Source of the DNA: Corallococcus macrosporus
Lineage (GTDB): Bacteria > Myxococcota > Myxococcia > Myxococcales > Myxococcaceae
Assembly (NCBI RefSeq): GCF_017302985.1
Contig: NZ_JAFIMU010000013.1
Location: 62,001 to 126,000, forward strand
Reading direction: 5' to 3'
DNA length: 64,000 nt
Shown in pieces: positions 42,515 through 53,731 of this stretch (within the stretch, counting starts at the first letter, position 1; every line of letters begins with the position of its first letter). The position numbers were made by a program, and so were the translations under genes. Below the pieces are notes generated by a model, which saw nothing but the letters and a program-made list of their open reading frames with translations, was not told where the DNA came from and ran no database searches.

Positions 42515-42518
42515 AACG

Positions 42519-43073
42519 ATGATGGAGATGCCCAGGCGAGCGAGGGGGTGGAGCGGCGTCCAGGTGTTCGCGCTGGGCCACTCCACGCGCCCCATCGAGG
42601 AGCTGGTGGAGATGCTGTGGGCGAACGGCGTGCGGACGCTGGTGGACATCCGCACGGTGCCGCGCTCCCGCAAGAACCCGCAGTTCAACGTGGACGTGCT
42701 GGGAAAGACGCTGGCCCAGGTGGGCGTCGAGCACCTGCACCTGGCAGCGCTCGGCGGGCTGCGGCGTCCGCGCAAGGACTCGCCCAACGCGGCCTGGCGC
42801 AACCTGAGCTTTCGCGGCTACGCGGACTACATGCTGACGAAGGACTTCGCGCAGGGGCTGGAGTCGCTGCGCGGGGTGGCACTGCGGGGGCCGGTGGCCG
42901 TGATGTGCGCGGAGGCGCTGCGCTGGCGCTGCCATCGCTCGCTGGTGGCGGATGCGCTCTGGGCGAGGGGCGTCCTGGTGACGCACATCACGAGCCCCAC
43001 CCGCACGGAGCCGCACCGGCTCACGGCCTTCGCGGTGGTACGGGGGCGAGAGGTGCTGTACCCGGCGACGTAG
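42519..43073 (+). CDS. DUF488 family protein
   Basis: A 184-residue protein starting at ATG 42519. It has the family's FALGHSTRPIEELVEMLW, TLVDIRTVPRSRKNPQFN, GYADYM and CAEALRWRCHRSLVADAL motifs; the Cys/His cluster is conserved in DUF488. The molecular function is unknown. The 4-bp gap to hrpA suggests co-translation. A following remnant begins right after its stop. Confidence 0.88.
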   Translation: MMEMPRRARGWSGVQVFALGHSTRPIEELVEMLWANGVRTLVDIRTVPRSRKNPQFNVDVLGKTLAQVGVEHLHLAALGGLRRPRKDSPNAAWRNLSFRGYADYMLTKDFAQGLESLRGVALRGPVAVMCAEALRWRCHRSLVADALWARGVLVTHITSPTRTEPHRLTAFAVVRGREVLYPAT

Positions 43074-43076
43074 GCA

Positions 43077-43236
43077 AGTCGTCCCGGACTCTTTCATCGC
43101 CAGCACGTGCTCCACGAACTGATTGATGGCGATCTCGGTCCCCTGCTGCCAACTCGACGTCTTGTCCTTCTCAAAGTCCGCTTCGTCCCGGTGCAGCGCC
43201 GTGAAGACGTAGCGCGCTCCGGGCCCCACGCTCTTC
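43077..43236 (-). pseudogene. Possible coding remnant, unidentified
   Basis: On the minus strand a coherent stretch reads GARYVFTALHRDEADFEK, then TSSWQQGTEIAINQFVEHVL and AMKES. It has the codon bias of a real gene, but no start on one side and no proper stop on the other before it runs into the antisense of the DUF488 gene. It may be the C-terminal end of a lost gene. The rest of the 43074-43460 interval shows no other gene; GC-rich sequence of unclear origin fills 43240-43430. Confidence 0.3.
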
Positions 43237-43460
43237 TGATGCGCAGGAGAATCCGACGAGACGCACAAGAGGCATGGGGGCCCTGTTGAGGGGAGAGGCG
43301 TCCCGCGAGGAGCCCCGCCGCAATCGATTCGCGCTGGTTGCGTACCCCCAGCGCCGGTCCGGGTCGTCTTCACGAGAGGTGCGGCGGGGCAACTTCCCGT
43401 CACCCCCGCGGACAATCCAAAGAGAAGAATCTCGGATGTATCAGAGGGGGGCAGCACGTC

Positions 43461-46400
43461 ATGCGAGTCGATGGTCCGTCGTATCCAACCCAGACAATCT
43501 CTTCCTCAGAAAATGGCAAGGCCGAGGCCCGTGAGGGCTCCGAGGCCAACGTCCTCCGGGAGGAAGGCGCTCCCGGTGCGCAAGGCCCGGATTCAGCCTC
43601 CCGCTTCGAGGACGCGCCCCCGGCACACCGGGAGCGCCTGACGCCCCCGCCGCCGCCGCTTCCTCCCGAGCCGGAGCCGGAGCCCCGGCCCGTGCCGGAG
43701 AAGAACCTCAAGCGCGGCGACACCGGCGTGGACGTGAAGCAGCTCCAGGACTCACTGGTGGAGCTGGGCTATCTCACGCGCGAGCAGGTCGCCACCGGGC
43801 CGGGCCAGTTCGGTCCGCAGACGGAGGCCGCGCTGCAGAAGTTCCAGAAGGACAACGGCGTCCCCGCGAATGGCCGCTACGAGGCCGCCACCCGCGAGGC
43901 GCTGTCGAAGTCGCTCGCGCGCTCCGCGCAGACGGCCGGCAAGACGCAAGGCCCCGCCATGTCCGCCGAGGCCGCGTTCATCACCCAGTTCACCTCCGAG
44001 TACAACCCGCACGGTCCGTCCGGCAGCACCAACTGCGGCCCCGCCAGCCTCGCCATGTCCCTGGCGTACACGGGCCACATGCCCCCGGGCCTCACGAAGG
44101 AGCAGCAGGTGGACCATGCGCGCGCGCTGATGTGCCCGCGCCGCACGTCGGAGTTCACCTTCGTGAACGCGTCGGACGGCACGCGGGTGCCGCTGCTGGA
44201 CCGGGACCATGAGTTCACGGGCGGCACCATGGTGGCCGACGGCATCAAGGGTGCGGGCCTCACGTCTCGCTACGGGCAGGGCTGGGAGTCGCTGGATCAG
44301 CAGCTCGCGGCGGGCAACCCCGTCATCGCCAATGGCGCCACCAACGCGGCCTGGCGCTCGCAGTTCCCCGAGCGCATGGGCCGGGGCGACGTCGCTCACC
44401 TCAACGCCATCCTCGCGAAGACTCCGGACGGGAAGTACCTCGTCGCGGATCCGCTCCACACCGGGGGCCCGGTGGCGATGACGCGCCAGCAGCTCAGCGT
44501 CTTCTTCTCCCCCACCGGAGGCCAGCCGTCCTTCAACGCCCTTCAAGGGGCCTCGAGAGGCGCCGGGGCCGCGGAGGCCGGAGCCAGCGCGGGAGCCAGC
44601 GCGGGCACCACCACCGCGCGCCTGTTGGACGAGGCCGCCGCGCGCTTCCCGCCGTTCCAGCCGGAGCCCTTCACGCTGCCCGCGATGGGCGTGGGGGTCG
44701 CCAACGTCACCGGGGCGGGCGCGACGGGCGCGGACGTCAAGACGCGCGCGCAGCAGGACGCGAAGGCCCTGGCGGGCACGCTCCAGAACAGCCTGGAACA
44801 GGGGGCCGCGCAGTTCGAGCAGCTCATCGCCAGCAACCCGGATCCCGCCTACCAGGAGGCGTTCGTCCGCGCCGCGGAGCCGTCGCTCGCGAAGATGGGC
44901 CAGCTCTTCGCCGGCGTGTCACCGGAGACGGACCGCCAGCTGCACCCGCGTCCGCCGCTGCGCGCCCCCGACCTCCAGCGTGACCAGCCGCTGCTCGACA
45001 AGCTGGCGAAGGCGGAGACCGACATCGAGCAGAAGACGTACCTCAGCCTGGCGCGGGCCACGGAGCGGCTGGGGGAGCCGACCGCGGGCCTCGTGGGCCG
45101 GGCCTTCACGCGGGACACGCCTCCGGGCTTCGCCAAGCTCTCGCTGAGCCACGCCATCCGGACCGCCGTCAACACGGGCATCGGCTCGCGCCTCGCGTTC
45201 GACATGGAGCGCGCGCTGAACGTGAGCGAGGCCCTCCCGCCCGGCTTCAAGGGGCCCACCCGCGCCCTGGATGCCAAGGCCATCCACCAGACGCTGTGGA
45301 GCGCCATCGAAGGGCTGCGAGCCCCGTTCGCGGCGGTCGCGGACAAGGCGGAGGAGCACCAGAAGCAGCTCACGGAGCTGCTCAGCGGCCCGGCGAAGAT
45401 CCTCACCCCGGAGCAGCAGCAGGCCTTCACCGCCACCTACCTGAACGACCCCGCGCGCAAGCATGACCTCGCGGAGTTCGAGCGATACAGCAAGCTGTTG
45501 GCCCGCGCGGCCCCGGATGGCCCGCCCTCGGGCAAGCAGGGTCCGGAGGTGGTGGCGCTGGCCCGCGAGCTGCCGCGCATGGCGGCGACGCAGTCCGGCG
45601 CCGAGTACCTCGCCTCCCAGCTCACCGCCCAGGGCGAGAACCGCCCCACGTTCCTCGACACCCTCGGCAAGCTGAAGGACCTCAAGGACTTCGATGAGAA
45701 GCTCGCCGTCGCGCTCGTGAAGAGCGCGGGCTCAGGCGCCATCCTCGCGGCCGGCTTCAAGTCGAAGGGAGGCGCCGAGGCCATCTTCAACGGGCTCGCG
45801 AAGAACGCCCACCTCTTCGGGATGGCTCCGAAGGACATGCAGCAGTACGTCAAGCTGCTGCGCGGCATCAAGCCGGACTCCACGCAGGAGCAGGTCCAGG
45901 GCATCACCCAGTCCCTCAGGGGCCTCCTGAAGGAGCAGGAGACGGGACTGCCGGGCAGCCCGGATTCCCCTCGGGGCCAGGCGCTGCGCGGGCTGGGCGT
46001 CCTCGTCACCGCGTCAGCGGCCGTGGGGGACGCCGCGGGCTGGAACCAGGCGGACTTCGCCGCGAAGCTGAAGATCGTCGGCGACGGGCTCAGCGTCGGC
46101 GGGGACGGCGCGACGTTCGTCCTCGATGCGCTCGGCAAGGCGGCGCCGGTCCTCTCCAAGGTGTTCGACAAGGCGTCCGGCGTGGGCACGCTGCTGGGCG
46201 CGGTGGGCGACGGCATCCAGACCTTCCAGGCCGTGCAGGAGGGCAAGTACTGGAAGGCGAGCGCATCCGGCGCCCAGGCGCTGGGCGCCCTCCTCATGGC
46301 AGGAGGCGCCGCGACCGAGTGGATCCCCGGCGGACAGCTCATCGGCGCCGCGCTGTTCCTGGGCGGGCTCACGGTGAAGTACCTGGACCCGGACCAGTAC

Positions 46401-46844
46401 GCCACGCGCGGCGCCCAGGTGCGCCTGCTCACCGAGAGCGGCATGGACGCGAAGCTGGCGCAGAACCTCATCGACCTGGGCCCCGACCTCCTCGACAAGC
46501 GGCTGCGGCAGGAGGCACGCATGTCGCCGGAGCAGGTGCAGCGGTTCATCACCGACCACCCGGAGCTCGCGCGGGCCCCCCTGCACTTCGACAGCCTGAG
46601 CCAGGGCGCCAACGCCATGGGGATGAAGGGCGCGGACTACCCGGCATTCCTGGAGCGGCTGGCGAAGGCCCACGGCGTGGAGGTCGGCACGCTCGCGGCC
46701 GAGGTCCACACCCGGTTCTTCGGCCATCCGCCCTCCGCGGGCGCGAGCCAGGGGCAGCTGTCCCCGGAGGACGAGTTCCGCCAGTGGGTGGAGACGCGCA
46801 CGCCGGAAGTCGCCGCGTGGGCGAAGCAGCACCGGACGCCCTGA
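43461..46844 (+). CDS. Large protein with peptidoglycan-binding and C39-like peptidase domains, helical C-terminus
   Basis: A 1127-residue protein starting at ATG 43461, preceded by GAGGGGG. No signal peptide is present; residues 1-80 are disordered, ending in a Pro/Glu run. A peptidoglycan_binding_1 domain (~82-150) has LKRGDTGVDVKQLQDSLVEL and QFGPQTEAALQKFQ. A papain-fold C39-like peptidase (~170-345) has Cys192 in TNCGPASLAMSLAY, His313 in GDVAHLNAI and Asp330 in YLVADPLH. The remaining ~780 residues are mostly helical. Around 900-980 they contain a glycine-rich hydrophobic stretch (VGTLLGAVGDGIQTF, GALLMAGGAATEWIPGGQ) that could insert in membranes. It may be a wall- or membrane-acting effector exported without a Sec signal. 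That role is inference. Confidence 0.75.
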   Translation: MRVDGPSYPTQTISSSENGKAEAREGSEANVLREEGAPGAQGPDSASRFEDAPPAHRERLTPPPPPLPPEPEPEPRPVPEKNLKRGDTGVDVKQLQDSLVELGYLTREQVATGPGQFGPQTEAALQKFQKDNGVPANGRYEAATREALSKSLARSAQTAGKTQGPAMSAEAAFITQFTSEYNPHGPSGSTNCGPASLAMSLAYTGHMPPGLTKEQQVDHARALMCPRRTSEFTFVNASDGTRVPLLDRDHEFTGGTMVADGIKGAGLTSRYGQGWESLDQQLAAGNPVIANGATNAAWRSQFPERMGRGDVAHLNAILAKTPDGKYLVADPLHTGGPVAMTRQQLSVFFSPTGGQPSFNALQGASRGAGAAEAGASAGASAGTTTARLLDEAAARFPPFQPEPFTLPAMGVGVANVTGAGATGADVKTRAQQDAKALAGTLQNSLEQGAAQFEQLIASNPDPAYQEAFVRAAEPSLAKMGQLFAGVSPETDRQLHPRPPLRAPDLQRDQPLLDKLAKAETDIEQKTYLSLARATERLGEPTAGLVGRAFTRDTPPGFAKLSLSHAIRTAVNTGIGSRLAFDMERALNVSEALPPGFKGPTRALDAKAIHQTLWSAIEGLRAPFAAVADKAEEHQKQLTELLSGPAKILTPEQQQAFTATYLNDPARKHDLAEFERYSKLLARAAPDGPPSGKQGPEVVALARELPRMAATQSGAEYLASQLTAQGENRPTFLDTLGKLKDLKDFDEKLAVALVKSAGSGAILAAGFKSKGGAEAIFNGLAKNAHLFGMAPKDMQQYVKLLRGIKPDSTQEQVQGITQSLRGLLKEQETGLPGSPDSPRGQALRGLGVLVTASAAVGDAAGWNQADFAAKLKIVGDGLSVGGDGATFVLDALGKAAPVLSKVFDKASGVGTLLGAVGDGIQTFQAVQEGKYWKASASGAQALGALLMAGGAATEWIPGGQLIGAALFLGGLTVKYLDPDQYATRGAQVRLLTESGMDAKLAQNLIDLGPDLLDKRLRQEARMSPEQVQRFITDHPELARAPLHFDSLSQGANAMGMKGADYPAFLERLAKAHGVEVGTLAAEVHTRFFGHPPSAGASQGQLSPEDEFRQWVETRTPEVAAWAKQHRTP

Positions 46845-46861
46845 GCGCGTCCCGCGAGCAC

Positions 46862-46906
46862 GGGCGCGCGGCCGCTCACCGCCGCGCGCCCTGCGACGTT
46901 GCAGGG
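46862..46906 (+). terminator. Double hairpin after the C39-like gene
   Basis: GGGCGCGCGGC (46862-46872) pairs perfectly with GCCGCGCGCCC (46881-46891). An overlapping second hairpin is CCCTGC (46889-46894) with GCAGGG (46901-46906). No U-run follows. It starts 18 bp after the stop. Confidence 0.55.
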
Positions 46907-47068
46907 CAAACAGCGCTCGCAGGAAGAGGGCCCCTGACGTCAGCCGAGGACGGGGGGCGTCCTCCCTGGACGCGAGCCCGGCCGGCGAATCCACCTCTTC
47001 GACATGATTCCTGCCATGAATCGCTGTCACCGGCGAGGCTCCCATCCAAGGAACGACGACGCACCCCA

Positions 47069-47329
47069 GGTGCGCTGTCGTTCTCCCCAACCTCCTCCGG
47101 GCGCCTGCCCCTCCGCGGCCCCGAGCACACGGCGGCGCTCGTACTCGCGAACCTCCACGACACGCACGAACTCCTTCCCCTCGTCGGTTCCGTGCCTGCG
47201 GTGAAGATGCCTTCGGGGCGCTATCGAGCGAGCCGCACGGGTGACTTCACGACGGCCAATTCCACCCTGCGGACGCTGCTCGGTCGCGCGCCGACGGACA
47301 TGCGCGAGGTGCTCTCCAGGCCTCGGTGA
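47069..47329 (+). pseudogene. Possible gene remnant between wall-active genes
   Basis: The frame ending at TGA 47329 reads ALSFSPTSSGRLPLRGPEHT, then AALVLANLHDTHELLPLVGS and a basic tail GRYRASRTGDF, with good third-position GC. No start codon or Shine-Dalgarno site precedes it in frame, so it looks like the 3' end of a lost gene. I do not recognise the family. Elsewhere in 46845-47343 I see only the hairpins just after 46844. Confidence 0.35.
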
Positions 47330-47343
47330 ACAGGCGTGGTGCC

Positions 47344-49497
47344 CTACGCCACTCTCTTGAGCTCATTGGACTTCATCCAGACCATGGCGTGATCCGCGAT
47401 GGCGGACGCCCTGTCCGTGCCATTGATGATGGCGCGTGCACGGCGGAAGGCGTCGTGCAGGTTGGCGTGGGACGCCGTGAGGTAGTCCGACAGCTTCTTC
47501 GAGGTGAAAGCCCCCGTCTTCATCCCATGCACCAGGATAAAGAGCGACACATTGGGCTGCAGGAGCAGTTCCGGGTGACGGACCAGGTCCAGGCCGAGGA
47601 GGTCACTGTACTTCTGGTAGTTGCGCTTCCACGTCAACTGCACGTATCCGCGCCCGTGATAGGGATGGTATTTCTTGCCCCGAAGGTACGCGGCGGCCTC
47701 CTTCGTGGTCATGTAGCTGGCCTCTTCGATGGGCTTGAAGGTGTCGCCCGTCTCGTGCTCCACCGTGGCGAGCACATAGGCAATCTGGGTCGGAAGCCTT
47801 ACTCCCTGGCGGAGGCACTCCTCCCGGATGGCCCGGACAGTCCCCGCGCGGTCCGCCCCCTGGAACGAAGGCAGGGCGACCTTGGACGTGGCAGGGCGGA
47901 CCAGGGGGGATGCGGGCTGCCGGGCGACTGAAGCCTTGACCTTGGGCTTGAACTGCCCGGCCGCGCGCCCCACGGCGGCCGCGACTGCCACGGCGGCCGC
48001 GACCGTCGCCGGGACGACCCTCCCTCGGGCCGGGCCCCGGCTGAACGTGACGGCGTTGCCGACGGTGCGGTAGCGGGTGCCGTGTTTGGTGAGGCCGTCG
48101 CCTTCCAGCCGGCCATCCTTCATCGCATGCAACGTGAGGAACTTGCCACCGGCGGGATCGCTGGCCTGGTAGCAATTGGCCGAGGTTCGGCTGGTGATGA
48201 GGATCCAGTGATCTCCTTCGCCATCGTACCTGCCAGGGTTCTTTCCACCGCTTCGAGTGTAATAGTCCACATGGACCACCACGGGCCGTCCCGCGGCCAG
48301 TTCGCGGTCTATCTCCGGGGCCTTGAAACCCGTCAGACGCTTGAGGTCCACCTCTGGATTCGCGATCCGGCCCAACTTGTCCCAGTCGACGATGCTTCCA
48401 CCTGAGTTGAAGCCATGGTTCTTGAGCATGAAGTGGGCCATGTCGTCCGGTGTATACATTTGCCCGGTGATGCCACTGACCGCCATGGTGACCGCGGTCA
48501 TGGCGCAGCCAATCTGGGCGACACTCTTCTCACTCTTGCTCGCGATGACGATGGCGCTCCAGGTTTCGTTCTTCCTCGTGGCGCTGTTGTATCCCTGGGC
48601 AAAGAGCGGGTATCCATCACGGCTGGGAAAGTGACGGCCGTTCTTGGTGAAGTCCCTGCCCGCGACCGCGCGCCCCACCGGAGCCGCGACATCCGGCGGC
48701 GTGATCTGTTGCAGCGGGCGAGTCTTGGGATCCTGACTCGGGGGGCTGCTCGCGAACCGTGACTGACCGCTCAGGAGCGCCTTCCAGGTCAGGGGTCCCA
48801 CGAGCCCGTCCGCCACCAAGCCATGTGTGCGTTGCCACTCGTGGACGGAATCATCCGTGACGGGCCCGAAGAGACCATCAGCGCGGACCCCCAGCTTCGC
48901 CTGGAGCCATTTGACATCGTTGCCCGCGAGCCCCTCCTTCAGCGTTCGCGCGCCCAGGGTCATGCCCTCGCGATACGCCTCGAATGTATGCGCCGTGGCC
49001 GGCCGCGCAGTCGACGAGGGCTGTGGCTGAAGCGGGAGGGCAACGCTCTGGGTGCCCTCGATCTTCGACAGCCGCGTGATGCCCCAGGACGTGGTCAAAT
49101 CGTACAGTGCCTTCTTCTCACTCACGGAGACGTGAGCGTGCTTCGTGTGGCGGTTCTCCCCTGTGTAGCGCTGCGGGGCCCATGCGGACACGCCACGCCT
49201 GGCATAGGAGCGCCAGATCTTCTCGTTCCAGATGATGTACTTGATGCGGGGATCGCGGCGCTCGACCAGTTGCGCCACGAAGTGGTCCATGTTCGCTCCG
49301 CCCGCGGGATCGTGTGTGAAGTCACACGCGGTGACGATCCCCGTGGCACCATCCTTCACCCAGGGGTTGTGGTCACTCTCGCGAGCTGCATGGGCAGCAT
49401 CGCCAATCCAGCCATCACATGATTTTCCGCGTGAGGGCGCACACCGGTTCAATTCGTTTCGCAGCTGGTCGAGCGAGTTCGCGATCCTATAGGTCAC
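47344..49497 (-). CDS. Four-module muralytic protein: M15-like peptidase, PG-binding, C39-like peptidase, GH19-like
   Basis: A 717-residue protein starting at a GTG (49497) with GGGAGGGG six bases upstream. Residues 1-130 resemble phage-type M15 D-Ala/L-Ala peptidases, with likely zinc ligands His43 (SDHNPW), Asp59 (TACDF) and His122 (KHAHVSVS). Residues ~185-242 are a peptidoglycan-binding repeat (DVKWLQAKLGVRADGLFGP). Residues ~285-475 are a C39-like papain fold with Cys331 (QIGCAMTAVTMAV), His430 (GDHWILITS) and Asp447. After an Ala/Val linker, ~550-705 resemble GH19 chitinase/lysozyme (AYVLATVEHETG with Glu582, HGRGYVQLTWKRNYQKY). No signal peptide is visible. The likely target is bacterial cell wall. 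It lies 62 bp after a CBM9-like gene on the same strand. Confidence 0.8.
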   Translation of the reverse strand: MTYRIANSLDQLRNELNRCAPSRGKSCDGWIGDAAHAARESDHNPWVKDGATGIVTACDFTHDPAGGANMDHFVAQLVERRDPRIKYIIWNEKIWRSYARRGVSAWAPQRYTGENRHTKHAHVSVSEKKALYDLTTSWGITRLSKIEGTQSVALPLQPQPSSTARPATAHTFEAYREGMTLGARTLKEGLAGNDVKWLQAKLGVRADGLFGPVTDDSVHEWQRTHGLVADGLVGPLTWKALLSGQSRFASSPPSQDPKTRPLQQITPPDVAAPVGRAVAGRDFTKNGRHFPSRDGYPLFAQGYNSATRKNETWSAIVIASKSEKSVAQIGCAMTAVTMAVSGITGQMYTPDDMAHFMLKNHGFNSGGSIVDWDKLGRIANPEVDLKRLTGFKAPEIDRELAAGRPVVVHVDYYTRSGGKNPGRYDGEGDHWILITSRTSANCYQASDPAGGKFLTLHAMKDGRLEGDGLTKHGTRYRTVGNAVTFSRGPARGRVVPATVAAAVAVAAAVGRAAGQFKPKVKASVARQPASPLVRPATSKVALPSFQGADRAGTVRAIREECLRQGVRLPTQIAYVLATVEHETGDTFKPIEEASYMTTKEAAAYLRGKKYHPYHGRGYVQLTWKRNYQKYSDLLGLDLVRHPELLLQPNVSLFILVHGMKTGAFTSKKLSDYLTASHANLHDAFRRARAIINGTDRASAIADHAMVWMKSNELKRVA

Positions 49498-49503
49498 TGC
49501 AGT

Positions 49504-49511
49504 CCCCTCCC
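49504..49511 (-). promoter_or_regulatory. Shine-Dalgarno site fixing a GTG start
   Basis: GGGAGGGG on the minus strand lies six bases before the GTG at 49497. It excludes the 41-residue upstream extension, which would overlap the previous gene. Confidence 0.65.
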
Positions 49512-49559
49512 TTGTATTGCTGCATGACTTCCGTCGGAACTTCCAAACTTCCGGACGCG

Positions 49560-51026
49560 CTACGGCGTGGCAGGCGGCGCGAAGCGCTTCTCGTCGTAGC
49601 GGCCCGTCTTGGCGTTCCACGTATAGCGAGCGTCGAGCTGCCTGGACTTGCCTTCCGCTGGCACGATGAAGGCGTCAATGCGCGACAGGTCCACCGACGC
49701 ATCCCATTCCACCTTGTCCCCCTGGCTCGCGGCGCCCTCCAGCGACATGGATTGCGCGAACTTGCCGCGCTCGTCCATGGGCACGACCTCGAAGGACACC
49801 ATGGGGCAGGCACCACATGTCCCGGTCCCCAGCAGGGATTGAGTCCCTTCGGTCACCAGCAGCAGGTGCAGTCCGGGCGGCCGTCGCGTGTTGAGCACGG
49901 TTCGCGTGCCACTGTATCGCGTGTCCAGCAAGGCCTTGTCGCGGCGGGACACCAGCCAGTGGCCCAGGCTCCCGGTGGGTTCCACCTGCGCGGGCACCGT
50001 CAGGACCTCGATGTCATTGAGCGAGGCCTGGGGCTCCATCTTGGAGAGGTCAACGCTCACCACCTCGGGGCTCGGGGCCTCTGGCGAGTATTGATAGCCC
50101 CTGGCGGGGTTGAGCCAGACCTCGAACGTTCGCACGTCCGGTCCCGGTTGATAGGAACCGCGCTCGTTGGCCTTCAACGCCCGCTCGAACAACTCCGGCC
50201 AGGCCCCGAAACGCAGTGGCTGGGCAAGCTTCACCGCCTGGAACGTGCTGGGATCGCCGAAGCGCTGGCCCGCGACAGACGACAAGAATGTTTCGAGCTT
50301 GTTCTTGTTCTCGTCGTTATCGACCAGGCTCACCAGGACCTTGAGGTTGCGCAGCGGGGCCTCGGCCGAGCGGGGAAAGGCGCTCGCGGGAATGAGCGCC
50401 TCGAAGCGGTAGCCGCCGTCCATCAACTCGTAGCGAATAGGGCCTACCGTCCCCTTCTTTCCGAATTGCACCACCCCTCCGGACATCAGCCCATACTGGG
50501 CGATGAAGGGGCGCACCAACTGCTTGCGGCGCTCCGTCTGCTTCTTCCACCACGCGCGGCACGCCGCGGGGTCGCCCGAGGTCACGACCTCCGCATCATC
50601 GCAGGCGTCAGCGGTCGCGAGCGGGTGCTCACCAAACTGGTTGACGAAGGCAAGCGGCGGCATTTCGGGCTGGGGCAGCGCCAGCCACAGTTCCAGATGG
50701 TCATGGTGGATCTGCTCGGGCGTGGCGGACAGGAACACGCGGTCATCGCGTACCTCGCCCGCCATGGCGAGTCCTTCAGGCCCCACCGCCACCCACAACT
50801 GGGCGGAAAGATCCTGCGGCGAGGTGACCTGGGAGGTTCCTGCCACCCGCTGCTCCCCCCCGAGGGACAGCGAAGGAGGCAACGCCTTCCACTCACTGAG
50901 CGCGCCGTCCACCTTGAAGCCCGCGGGATGGCCCTCGTGCAGCCGTAGACCTGGGGACGAAGAGTCCGCCATGGCGGGCGCGGCGGCCAGCAGGAACAGT
51001 GATATGGACGTATTGAGTAGAGTCAT
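49560..51026 (-). CDS. Periplasmic protein with CBM9-like domain
   Basis: A 488-residue protein starting at ATG 51026 with a Sec signal (MTLLNTSISLFLLAAAPAMA). Residues ~30-250 fit a CBM9/DOMON-like carbohydrate-binding sandwich: FKVDGALSEWKALPPSLSL, LWVAVGPEGLAMAGEVRDDR, HHDHLELWLALP and GYRFEALIPASAFP. The C-terminal half is unrecognised, with a CGAC pair (GTGTCGACPMVSFEVV). It is upstream of and co-directional with the four-module muralytic gene, and divergent from a lipoprotein gene 88 bp away. It could bind wall glycan, or protect the producer from its neighbour; neither is shown by sequence. Confidence 0.7.
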   Translation of the reverse strand: MTLLNTSISLFLLAAAPAMADSSSPGLRLHEGHPAGFKVDGALSEWKALPPSLSLGGEQRVAGTSQVTSPQDLSAQLWVAVGPEGLAMAGEVRDDRVFLSATPEQIHHDHLELWLALPQPEMPPLAFVNQFGEHPLATADACDDAEVVTSGDPAACRAWWKKQTERRKQLVRPFIAQYGLMSGGVVQFGKKGTVGPIRYELMDGGYRFEALIPASAFPRSAEAPLRNLKVLVSLVDNDENKNKLETFLSSVAGQRFGDPSTFQAVKLAQPLRFGAWPELFERALKANERGSYQPGPDVRTFEVWLNPARGYQYSPEAPSPEVVSVDLSKMEPQASLNDIEVLTVPAQVEPTGSLGHWLVSRRDKALLDTRYSGTRTVLNTRRPPGLHLLLVTEGTQSLLGTGTCGACPMVSFEVVPMDERGKFAQSMSLEGAASQGDKVEWDASVDLSRIDAFIVPAEGKSRQLDARYTWNAKTGRYDEKRFAPPATP

Positions 51027-51114
51027 ACAACGCCCTCGCTGAATTTTTGCTAGCATAACATCAATTCGCAATCCCTGGCCAGACGCGGAAGCGCTTTCTG
51101 GATGGAGGAAATCC

Positions 51115-52266
51115 ATGTCTTTGAATCGCTGGTCTCACATGTTGGTTGCCTTCACATTTGCCGTGTCCGGATGCAAATCCAACCCACCCTCCACGGCGGA
51201 CGCGAACGCTCCCGCGCCTGCCAAGGCCTCCGCTCCCGCGCCCGCGAACAAAGCGGAGCTGGGTCCAGCCTTGTCATACCTTGTATCCGTGGGACCCCAG
51301 CGCTGTGAATGGGTGCGACAGCCACTCCCCACGGGGGAGCCCCAGCGCTTCGCCTTTGACGCGGCATGCGACGAGACCGGGTTGTCCTGGAACCCCGCGG
51401 CGACCGAGGGAATTGCGTTCAGCGCCGCCATGGGCGAGCGGACCGCGCCCCTTGCCTGGCGCGTGGACTTCACGACCAAGAGCATCAAGAAGCTGGAGCT
51501 CTCCTCACTGCCTGGGGGAGCCCCCGTCGAGGGCAAGGAGGGGCCGTCGCTGGTGCAGCTGGGGTTCGATACACAGGGCCGGCCCCAGGCACTTGTTGCG
51601 GACGTCTACGTTCAGCGCACACCGGAATCTGGAGAAGGCGGCAGGCAATTCCTTGCGTTTGAAGGGCAGCGCTACCCGGTCGCGGATGGAAGTTCCAATG
51701 CCGAGAACGCTCCGGGGCTCGCGTTCGCCTACCGGATGGAGGGGGCAGCGTGGAAGCGCATCGAGACCAAGGTGAGCAGCTTCGGCTCGCAGGATGCTCC
51801 CGACGTCAGCGAACTCGATGCCGCGAAGAAGATGCTTGATCAAACGGTGTCGTCGGCCGACGCGCTGCCAGGAAAGCCTTCGGACAAGGCCATGGCCCAC
51901 ACGTTGGAGACCACCCTGATCGAGGACCCGACCGACGAGGAGGCCTGGCGGACCTTGCCGACACCGGGAGCTGTCCTGCATTACCGAGTCGCGAAGGACC
52001 CTGAGGATGATTCGAACTTCGCGAGCCTGCCCCTGCGCTGGGAACGGGACGGTGCTCTGGTGCCGCCGGAGCCACTGGCGGCTCAGCAGGGAGAGCGCCT
52101 CATGCTTCAAGCGCGGGGCGCGATGGTGCTCATCGTGTCCCTGAGCGAAGCGGGCCGCACGGCCCAGGTGTTCGACAGCCAGACGCAGAAGAGTCTGGTG
52201 CGCGTCCAGGGCGTCGACGCCCCGACGCTGTGGCCCCAGCCCACCAGCTCCGCAGCCACTCCCTGA
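51115..52266 (+). CDS. Lipoprotein of unknown function
   Basis: A 383-residue protein starting at ATG 51115 with GGAGGAAA upstream. The signal and lipobox (MLVAFTFAVSGCKS) are followed by an Ala/Pro linker. The mature part has no recognised domain; notable strings are QRCEWVRQPLPTGEPQRFAF, FLAFEGQRYPVADGSS and QARGAMVLIVSLSEAGRTA. It is divergent from the CBM9-like gene. Its stop coincides with the point where the opposing alpha/beta hydrolase loses homology, marking the edge of an insertion. Confidence 0.7.
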   Translation: MSLNRWSHMLVAFTFAVSGCKSNPPSTADANAPAPAKASAPAPANKAELGPALSYLVSVGPQRCEWVRQPLPTGEPQRFAFDAACDETGLSWNPAATEGIAFSAAMGERTAPLAWRVDFTTKSIKKLELSSLPGGAPVEGKEGPSLVQLGFDTQGRPQALVADVYVQRTPESGEGGRQFLAFEGQRYPVADGSSNAENAPGLAFAYRMEGAAWKRIETKVSSFGSQDAPDVSELDAAKKMLDQTVSSADALPGKPSDKAMAHTLETTLIEDPTDEEAWRTLPTPGAVLHYRVAKDPEDDSNFASLPLRWERDGALVPPEPLAAQQGERLMLQARGAMVLIVSLSEAGRTAQVFDSQTQKSLVRVQGVDAPTLWPQPTSSAATP

Positions 52267-52636
52267 TGACGGGCGGCTCATAGACGACCAGCTTCGAGAT
52301 CAGGAGTCCTCGCGCCGCCGCATCCAGGGCCAGGAGGCCGCCGGACGAATTGCCAAACACGGCGGCGGATCCGCCAGCGGCGGTGATGAGCGCCGCGAGG
52401 TCCTCCACCTCCCTCTCGAGCGCATGGGACGGTGTGTCCCCGCTGTCTCCTCGGCCGCGCCGGTCGTAGCTGAACACGGTGAAGCGATGGGCCAGCAGGG
52501 CCGCCAGCGGGGTTCCCGAGGTCGGCGCCGTGCGGTCACAGAACGAGCCACCCACCAGGATGAGCGGTGAACCCTTGCCGGTGGTCTCGAACGCGATGGA
52601 CGTTCCGTCAGCGGACCTGACTGTCTGGGTTGTCAT
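52130..52636 (-). pseudogene. Truncated alpha/beta hydrolase
   Basis: It starts at ATG 52636 (MTTQTVRSADGTSIAFETTG). The typical first half of the fold is intact: LILVGGSFCDR (oxyanion loop), FSYDRRGRGDSGDTP and the nucleophile elbow AVFGNSSGGLLAL with its Ser. At about 52268, right after VVYEPPVI, homology stops. The frame runs on antisense to the convergent lipoprotein gene until 52130. The acid and His of the triad are missing, so the 168-residue product cannot be active (family length is ~260-280). It is 10 bp after the ECF sigma gene, its old operon partner. Confidence 0.8.
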
Positions 52637-52646
52637 GGCAGTTCCT

Positions 52647-53588
52647 TCAGTGCTGGGCAGCAGGCTGGTAGCCGTGCGTGCGAAAGGGGACGTCGAGCTC
52701 GCGGCAGATCTCCGTCAGGACCTCGGGCGAGTGGTAGTAGCTCCGCAGCCGCGTGATGCGGTCGCCGTCCAGCTCGACCCGCACGACGGCATGCACTTCG
52801 TCTCCGGACCACCACAGGAAGAGCGATTCGCCGCGGTGCGCGCGGAGTTCGCAACGCGGCGGATCCACGAGCACGTAGCCCCCCTCGGGACAGCCGAAGA
52901 GCGTTCCCTGGAGCGAGCCGTCGCGGACCGCCTGGGCCCCGGACTCGATCTTGAAGCCCGGGTATTCCAGGGTCGCCGTATCGAGCAGGAGCGCCGTGAG
53001 ACGATCCAGGTCACGCGCGTTGAAGGCGTCGCAGAAGGCGTTGAGGACGGCGGGCGCCACCGGAGCCGGCTCAGCCGGTTCCGGCGTCACCAGCTTCGCC
53101 CTCCCCCGGTGCAGCGCGGCCTTGATGGCCCCGGTCGTGGTGGAGAGCGCTTCCGCGGTCTCCTCCAGTGACATCCCGAAGGCGTCCTTGAGCACGACCG
53201 CGGCTCGCTCCTGCGGTGAGAGTTGCGAGAGCAGCGTTCCCGCGGCCTCACGCGTCGCGCGCGGCTCGGCGCGCGTCGCAGGCTCCGGGACCTCGACTCC
53301 TTCGAGAGCCGGGACCTCCCGGGCCTGTCGCATCCGGTTGAGCCACAGGTTGCTCGCGACCCGGAAGAGCCACGCGCGCGGGCTGCGCGGCGGCTCCGCC
53401 ATGATGCCGAGGCTCGCGAACGCACGGGCCATCGTCTCCTGGGCCATGTCCTCGGCATCCCAGGGGCTGCGCGTCAACTGCCGGCAGTACCGGTAGAGCT
53501 CCGGGCGCAGCGGCTCATAGGTTTCGATGAAACGGCGCCAGGACGCCTTGACGGCGTCTCCCAGCGGGTCTTGGGATTCAGTGCTCAT
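52647..53588 (-). CDS. ECF sigma factor with SnoaL-like C-terminal domain (SigJ-type)
   Basis: A 313-residue sigma-70-family protein starting at ATG 53588. Region 2 is YRYCRQLTRSPWDAEDMAQE and region 4 is LSPQERAAVVLKDAFGMSLE with TTTGAIKAALHRGR. Residues ~185-313 form an NTF2/SnoaL-like domain (FCDAFNARDLDRLTALL, VVRVELDGDRITRLRSYYH) that replaces an anti-sigma partner in ECF41/SigJ-type factors. Such factors usually sit beside the enzyme gene they control. Here that gene is the truncated hydrolase 10 bp downstream. Confidence 0.9.
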   Translation of the reverse strand: MSTESQDPLGDAVKASWRRFIETYEPLRPELYRYCRQLTRSPWDAEDMAQETMARAFASLGIMAEPPRSPRAWLFRVASNLWLNRMRQAREVPALEGVEVPEPATRAEPRATREAAGTLLSQLSPQERAAVVLKDAFGMSLEETAEALSTTTGAIKAALHRGRAKLVTPEPAEPAPVAPAVLNAFCDAFNARDLDRLTALLLDTATLEYPGFKIESGAQAVRDGSLQGTLFGCPEGGYVLVDPPRCELRAHRGESLFLWWSGDEVHAVVRVELDGDRITRLRSYYHSPEVLTEICRELDVPFRTHGYQPAAQH

Positions 53589-53731
53589 GCCGGAGAGACA
53601 CGCGACGGGCGAAAAAGGATACGCCCGGGAGGCGCGGAGAGAAAGCGTCCGCATGTGACTTCAGGCACATGTGCCCCCGGGCACGGCCCTTCATATTGCC
53701 TCGCATCCACCCGCCACACCCGAGGCCCCTC

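Follow-up and report, generated by a model that had tools for sequence, protein, structure and literature searches.

The window analysed here, a 64,000-nucleotide stretch of the Corallococcus macrosporus genome (contig NZ_JAFIMU010000013.1, positions 62,001 to 126,000), contains on its minus strand a gene, P0001, whose product joins an M15-like peptidase, a PG_binding_1 repeat (PGB), a C39-like cysteine peptidase and a GH19 domain, in that order. The open reading frame has 717 codons plus a stop and begins with GTG; both orthologues of P0001 carry an ATG no more than two residues from this start position. The features of the locus, in window coordinates, are as follows.

43073-52264, no strand: strain-variable block holding P0001-P0004, from flank comparison with genome G009
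43461-46844, plus strand: P0004, 1127 aa, convergent neighbour of P0001, inside the variable block
47344-49497, minus strand: P0001, focal gene, 717 aa, signal-less M15-like / PGB / C39-like / GH19 protein
47347-47892, minus strand: module 4, phage-endolysin-type GH19 (residues 536-717; E582, E592)
48022-48669, minus strand: module 3, C39-like cysteine peptidase (residues 277-492; C331, H430, D447)
48775-48924, minus strand: module 2, PG_binding_1 (residues 192-241; Pfam)
49063-49497, minus strand: module 1, VldE-like (M15-type, clan MD) zinc peptidase fold, predicted (residues 1-145; H43, D59, H120, H122)
49511-49504, minus strand: Shine-Dalgarno-like GGGAGGGG, read directly, six bases ahead of the P0001 GTG
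49560-51026, minus strand: P0003, 488 aa, secreted-looking, 62 bp upstream of P0001 on the same strand
51115-52266, plus strand: P0002, 383 aa, divergent lipoprotein, predicted beta-propeller

An HMM search of the segments against Pfam placed PG_binding_1 (residues 192-241, 5.1e-10) and Peptidase_C39_2 (residues 328-441, 1.8e-6, 29 bits against a cut-off of 24) above the curated cut-offs and GH19 (residues 608-647, 5.8e-4) below its cut-off, and left the M15 families unmatched. In PHROGs, the C-terminus (residues 570-709) was matched at 6.6e-39 by a best family of unknown function and by other families named endolysin, and the N-terminus (residues 19-129) at 1.3e-13, again by a family of unknown function. 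A profile of 28 C39 rows matched two C39-like entries in the PDB (3.5e-10 and 2.4e-9), and the Cys-His-Asp triad of C331, H430 and D447 is invariant in that alignment. The 26-row GH19 profile matched GH19 chitinases in the PDB (best 1.2e-11) as well as the phage proteins 4ok7 and 7r6s, and the two catalytic glutamates, E582 and E592, are invariant in all its rows.

Of the module labels, M15 has the weakest backing from sequence: no M15 family in Pfam matched any of the 45 members of the module 1 family, and the module 1 profile gave a weak PDB match to VldE (0.0084). AlphaFold models were made of module 1 and of P0002, the former with a pLDDT of 92.5. The module 1 model returned three Foldseek entries with E no greater than 0.001, all of them VldE, an L,D-endopeptidase described in the passages of PMC11667670 cited here as having an M15-type zinc site. 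Alignment of the model with pneumococcal VldE in VIA-align 2 gave a Z of 11.5 and an rmsd of 2.5 Å over 107 residues; the best rows other than VldE were GyrB (Z 4.2) and MepA (Z 4.1, rmsd 5.2). Five residues, H43, D59, H117, H120 and H122, are invariant in the 45-row alignment. By analogy to H301, D308, H375 and H373 of VldE, H43, D59 and H122 were assigned as putative zinc ligands and the nearby H120 as the putative catalytic residue; this assignment comes from the alignment, and the spacing between H43 and D59 exceeds that in VldE. On its predicted structure, the module is best described as 'VldE-like, clan MD' rather than as plain M15.

The best 11-residue mean hydropathy within the first 45 residues of P0001 is 0.05, compared with 2.0 and 2.14 for its exported neighbours, so that, as judged by hydropathy only, the protein has no Sec-like leader. 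Taken together, the Pfam, PHROGs and PDB profile searches, the module 1 model and the hydropathy bear out the initial annotation, which had described four modules joined in a single signal-less protein of 717 residues. Its view that the catalytic residues are retained agrees with their invariance in the alignments of all three enzyme modules, and the M15 fold that it had left to structure prediction was recovered as a match to VldE, an M15-type peptidase (Z 11.5). It had also regarded the combination as undescribed, and no M15-PGB-C39-GH19 protein was described in the open-access titles and abstracts that the literature searches listed. Its further proposal, of simultaneous cuts in stem peptide, cross-bridge and glycan strand, is a conjecture. 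The two exported neighbours with their recurrent linkage, and the phage-endolysin character of modules 1-2 and 4, did not figure in that annotation.

The distribution of the architecture was determined in 195 genomes of the phylum, with five candidates scored per genome. The result showed that the full architecture is present in three of them, the genome of the window included; the full-length relatives are in G026 (58%) and in G105, Archangium violaceum Cb vi76 (59%), which shares its GTDB family with the organism of the window. In G009, a genome of the same genus, the flanks at 42517-43072 (93%) and 52265-53623 (91%) are both kept, and the DNA between them differs, being about 5.6 kb long and yielding no homologue of any of the genes P0001-P0004. 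G009 was the one genome with both flanks among the five of the genus compared, the other four having the left flank only. P0004 encodes a PG_binding_1 and a C39-like domain followed by a long stretch that matched nothing in Pfam; its start is not signal-like, and it is a second possible wall-directed protein of the variable block.

Modules 1-2 and 4 are of phage-endolysin types. In IMG/VR, relatives of module 1 were encoded by 157 of 173 candidate stretches, many together with module 2, and relatives of module 4 by 341 of 473. The focal GH19 domain is closer in identity to phage endolysins (38-48%) than to GH19 domains encoded elsewhere in the same genome (26-36%). The architecture of viral open reading frames was examined in 160 loci, made up of the best 80 of the 157 and the best 80 of the 341. 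These contained M15 alone (48), M15-PGB (30), M15-PGB-PGB (2), GH19 alone (78), GH19-PGB (2) and PGB alone (1); no open reading frame carried an M15-GH19 fusion or a C39 module, and capture of a ready-made phage gene was therefore dropped as an explanation. Furthermore, none of the 382 annotated phage records with a match covered at least 80% of P0001, and a viral scan with P0001 alone as the query gave no match. Module 1 is common in bacterial contigs too, where 47 of 48 loci matched modules 1-2 only. A stand-alone M15-PGB gene of 218 aa, isolated and endolysin-like, was also seen on the G022 chromosome (L109:7086-7739), its product 45% identical to the N-terminus of P0001.

Module 3 is of a myxobacterial type; the family to which it belongs consists of LysM-C39 proteins that lack a signal and vary in their wall cutters. 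The module profile found this family at 67 places in 47 of the 195 genomes of the phylum. In eight of its proteins that were analysed with Pfam, LysM was present in all eight and Peptidase_C39_2 was above the cut-off in seven, the exception being L026, where the domain was found by the module profile. The further domains were SLT in five, glucosaminidase in one and GH19 in one, with none in one; in L027, SLT fell below the cut-off and was accompanied by M23. Given this composition, P0001 stands out from a background of signal-less proteins in which a LysM-C39 core is combined with interchangeable wall cutters, in that it carries M15-PGB where its relatives carry LysM. Wall-binding or wall-cutting modules thus accompany C39 in P0001 and in all eight relatives.

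Neither P0002 nor P0003 matched any Pfam or NCBIfam model above its cut-off. P0003 gave a weak CBM9-like match (E 0.094). For P0002, a profile search, 196 Foldseek matches with E no greater than 0.001 and VIA-align 2 Z values of up to 11.6 all point to a beta-propeller; a closer family could not be named because the TM-scores are low (0.2-0.4). Read by eye, 26 of 27 aligned rows of the P0002 family have K or Q after a lipobox-like cysteine; the exception is the second copy in G026, which lacks the cysteine.

The P0002 family was found at 88 places in 62 genomes. A member lies within 6 kb of a C39 place at 12 of the 67 C39 places, in 12 genomes, against 0.12 expected; both families occur together in 30 genomes, which hold 48 of the C39 places. 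Eight of the twelve linked places fall in one genus and probably represent one ancestral event, and on account of this concentration three or four independent arrangements were counted. The results also showed that the hydrolases paired with the P0002 family differ in architecture, being M15-PGB-C39-GH19 in three genomes, LysM-C39-SLT-M23 in G102 and LysM-C39-PGB-SLT in genus g41 (Pfam domains from L034 only). Tandem copies occur at some of these places: two beside the G102 gene, and three adjoining the P0001 orthologue of G026 (L045:4832-8208). In addition, a P0002-family gene lies upstream of a signal-less PGB-NlpC/P60 gene in G022. These pairings speak for P0002 as a candidate immunity protein. 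Counting against that reading, a P0002-family neighbour is missing at 55 of the 67 C39 places, many genes of the family stand alone, such as the second copy of the window's own genome, and the beta-propeller is a very common fold. Moreover, the hydrolase genes and the candidate immunity genes are arranged divergently or convergently rather than in one operon, which counts against an effector-immunity relationship.

The P0003 family has 17 places at E below 1e-40, one of them a fragment. Its members lie directly upstream of a GH19 gene on the same strand at eight of the 17 (G000, G026 and six others) and do not at another eight, the remaining place being the fragment. The GH19 domains at the six other places are of a different subtype, five of them 26-34% identical to the focal domain over 77-104 residues and the sixth 42% over 31 residues. 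The six genes encode a PGB-GH19 protein, as determined with Pfam for one of them (L100), with which the others align at 62-80%. At L095 and L100-L104, the gene immediately downstream of the P0003-family member is signal-less and its product has a long N-terminus rich in Ala and Glu, which makes each a candidate pair of effector and partner. In G105 the GH19 module is present and P0003 is absent, which counts against a partnership between the two.

The initial annotation had proposed type VI release, among other routes, for P0001. Two TssK loci occur in the window's genome, one on contig 3 and one on contig 12; P0001, on contig 13, is near neither, and a location of P0001 inside a T6SS locus was accordingly dropped. 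The type VI proposal nevertheless draws indirect support from a closely related C39-lipoprotein pair at the end of a T6SS gene cluster in G102. There, a LysM-C39-SLT-M23 gene, two P0002-family genes and a gene of 656 residues (L048:11093-13060) stand in a row that adjoins genes for IcmF, DotU, TssF, TssK, VipB and VipA, all above the Pfam cut-offs. In G119 (L335:2266-6101), a P0002-family gene (E 8.8e-64) and a LysM-VanY-glucosaminidase-PGB gene, its VanY just below the Pfam cut-off, lie beside a copy of the same 656-residue gene, about 12 kb from TssK. The G119 partner contains VanY and glucosaminidase, which rules out a restriction of the P0002 family to cysteine peptidases. It is itself a further candidate effector that would combine several wall hydrolases.

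Relatives of the 656-residue gene occur in 53 of the 195 genomes. In 28 typed cases it shares a contig with TssK, each time at a distance of no more than 13 kb, and it was therefore taken to be a T6SS-cluster gene. It had been read by eye as VgrG, and that reading was abandoned, as searches of Pfam, NCBIfam, PHROGs and the PDB with its profile and 14 members gave no VgrG match, which slightly weakens the effector account given below; its best PDB match is PdpA (E 0.13), and it is possibly a divergent spike protein. A P0002-family gene flanks it at two of 21 positions (G102 and G119; 20 genomes besides G102 were covered). The copy in Archangium violaceum is 89% identical to that of G102 and has neither a P0002-family gene nor such a hydrolase gene in its flank, the P0001 orthologue sitting elsewhere in that genome. 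Of all 67 C39 places, those of G102 and G121 (the latter at 22 kb) are the two with a listed T6SS marker no further than 30 kb away. These low counts, two of 21 and two of 67, speak against the T6SS reading.

Phylogenetic trees link the focal locus with these clusters. The lipoprotein group associated with P0001 joins the G102 lipoproteins at 0.95, and the third lipoprotein copy of G026 groups with the T6SS-cluster lipoprotein of G119 at 1.0. The focal C39 group joins G102, G135a, G006 and G002 at 0.97; the last three have no P0002-family gene beside the C39 gene, which counts against the association. As stated in the cited part of PMC5801462, linkage of effector genes to a T6SS is usual and not required.

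The account that covers most of the observations is that P0001 is an antibacterial wall-hydrolase effector with several enzymes, P0002 its immunity protein and the T6SS its delivery route. We infer activity, immunity, delivery and target alike, and consider the account to have about an even chance of being correct. P0001, made without a Sec signal, would most likely enter the periplasm of a neighbouring cell as a cargo-type T6SS effector, a route inferred from its relatives only. The VldE-like zinc endopeptidase module is predicted to cut the stem peptide, and the wall-binding repeat, the C39-like cysteine peptidase and the lysozyme-like GH19 domain would join in the destruction of peptidoglycan. 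P0002, as a predicted beta-propeller lipoprotein, is the most likely immunity protein for P0001, and P0003 may protect against the GH19 activity as a candidate partner of that module. A more tentative and rather doubtful extension is that immunity is itself modular, the P0002 family serving mainly against peptidase modules of papain fold (C39, NlpC/P60), with GH19 modules countered by the P0003 family; the building of effectors from phage-type parts would then gather the protection genes in one island, as with the tandem lipoproteins of G026.

The chief rival, which we regard as unlikely yet a serious competitor, is that P0001 is a lysin for predation or scavenging that leaves the cell without an injector, by lysis of some cells of the population, in vesicles or otherwise non-classically, and then acts on walls from the outside, with P0002 and P0003 as envelope shields or as unrelated proteins. 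The 65 of 67 C39 places that are not near T6SS markers fit this. So do two Corallococcus enzymes as presented in the cited passages: C25GH19C, a signal-less LysM-GH19 enzyme with predicted non-classical secretion (PMC10875029), and C25GH19B, a related lysozyme that, on addition to cells, lyses bacteria of either Gram type (PMC9098779). It leaves unexplained, however, the pairing of the lipoprotein with hydrolases of different architectures and the presence of a lipoprotein-hydrolase pair inside a T6SS cluster.

It is improbable that P0001 is a domesticated phage endolysin acting on its own cell, in programmed lysis, sporulation or wall remodelling, with P0002 and P0003 as periplasmic regulators. 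The endolysin type of modules 1-2 and 4 would be expected of such a protein, and endolysins in general have no Sec signals; against this, the very patchy presence of the architecture (three of 195 genomes) argues against a housekeeping role, and the fusion is missing from the 160 viral loci (best 80 of 157 and best 80 of 341). Also against it, a PHROGs scan of the neighbours P0002-P0004 gave no convincing holin or spanin match, with one weak match for P0002 (E 0.004) over its leader; among these three neighbours no phage lysis cassette was seen. We give very little weight to a last reading, in which the C39 module does not cut wall and would instead process P0001 itself or a carrier, leaving a lysin of two enzymes around a centre that cleaves itself. 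In its favour, the Tox-PL-C39 domains found in polymorphic toxins are described as relatives of C39/ComA-like peptidases, which remove leader peptides from exported proteins (PMC3482391, cited part), and no tested wall substrate was found for this C39 subtype. Against it, wall-binding or wall-cutting modules co-occur with C39 in P0001 and the eight family proteins, and among the domains of mycobacteriophage lysins is N5, a C39-like wall peptidase by prediction (PMC3314691, cited part).

If the preferred account of P0001 as a delivered effector is correct, a predatory bacterium builds a wall-killing effector out of parts of the phage-lysin type, with three wall-directed catalytic modules per molecule against one or two in the studied analogues compared here. 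Two candidate immunity families, those of P0002 and P0003, which have no Pfam or NCBIfam match above cut-off, are thereby named. The account would also offer a route to further myxobacterial effectors, the existence of which was suspected by the authors of the TsxEI study in the passage cited (PMC5801462).

Antibacterial wall-hydrolase effectors with an exported immunity protein are a known kind, represented by Tae17, X-Tfe-XAC2609/X-Tfi-XAC2610 and TsxEI; the comparisons below refer to the cited parts of each report. That wall hydrolases of the signal-less, multi-enzyme sort form an established class of effectors (Tae17, X-Tfe-XAC2609) had been overlooked in the initial annotation. Tae17 of Acinetobacter baumannii, a bifunctional T6SS peptidoglycan hydrolase (PMC11796386), is modular like P0001, with several domains on linkers, a wall-binding domain (LysM in Tae17) and more than one wall-cutting enzyme per protein; Tae17 has two and is toxic only on reaching the periplasm. 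It differs in combining a transglycosylase with an amidase, in having an Ig-like domain that binds VgrG17 and in its proven delivery, whereas the three enzymes of P0001 come from other families and no delivery part was recognised in it. The Xanthomonas citri pair X-Tfe-XAC2609/X-Tfi-XAC2610 is a T4SS effector with its immunity protein (PMC10933484). The effector, like P0001, has no signal peptide and contains GH19 and a peptidoglycan-binding domain, and the inhibitor, like P0002 as predicted, is exported with a lipobox and has a beta-propeller-like topology, which resembles that of Tsi1 and PliI (PMC10933484); the likeness drawn to P0002 is one of topology. X-Tfe-XAC2609 differs from P0001 in its single enzyme, against three, and in its C-terminal XVIPCD delivery domain. 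No XVIPCD match was found in P0001 with Pfam or NCBIfam, libraries that may hold no XVIPCD model, and its C-terminus is filled by GH19. The T6SS pair TsxE/TsxI of Myxococcus xanthus (PMC5801462) is likewise myxobacterial, TsxE carrying LysM and TsxI being featureless and thought to be periplasmic; unlike P0001, TsxE has an amidohydrolase domain and lies beside vgrG2, and no C39, M15 or GH19 appears in the description cited.

Among phage proteins, the mycobacteriophage Lysin A enzymes are combinatorial, drawing on an M15-like L-Ala-D-Glu peptidase (N1), a C39-like peptidase (N5) and GH19, and a four-domain form exists in Timshel (N1-N2-GH19-C1) (PMC3314691). Unlike P0001, these are phage lysis genes, and N1, N5 and GH19 in one protein are not described in the cited part of that report. 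C25GH19B and C25GH19C of Corallococcus silvisoli are endolysin-like GH19 lysozymes (PMC9098779, PMC10875029); C25GH19C, which also has LysM, resembles P0001 in being a signal-less GH19 protein, and the cited passages describe no M15 or C39 module for either enzyme. Corallococcus GH19 enzymes thus have precedents both with a signal and without one. Compared with these systems, P0001 is new in its enzyme set and in the phage-type parts from which it is composed, and the two partner families, P0002 and P0003, are new as well.
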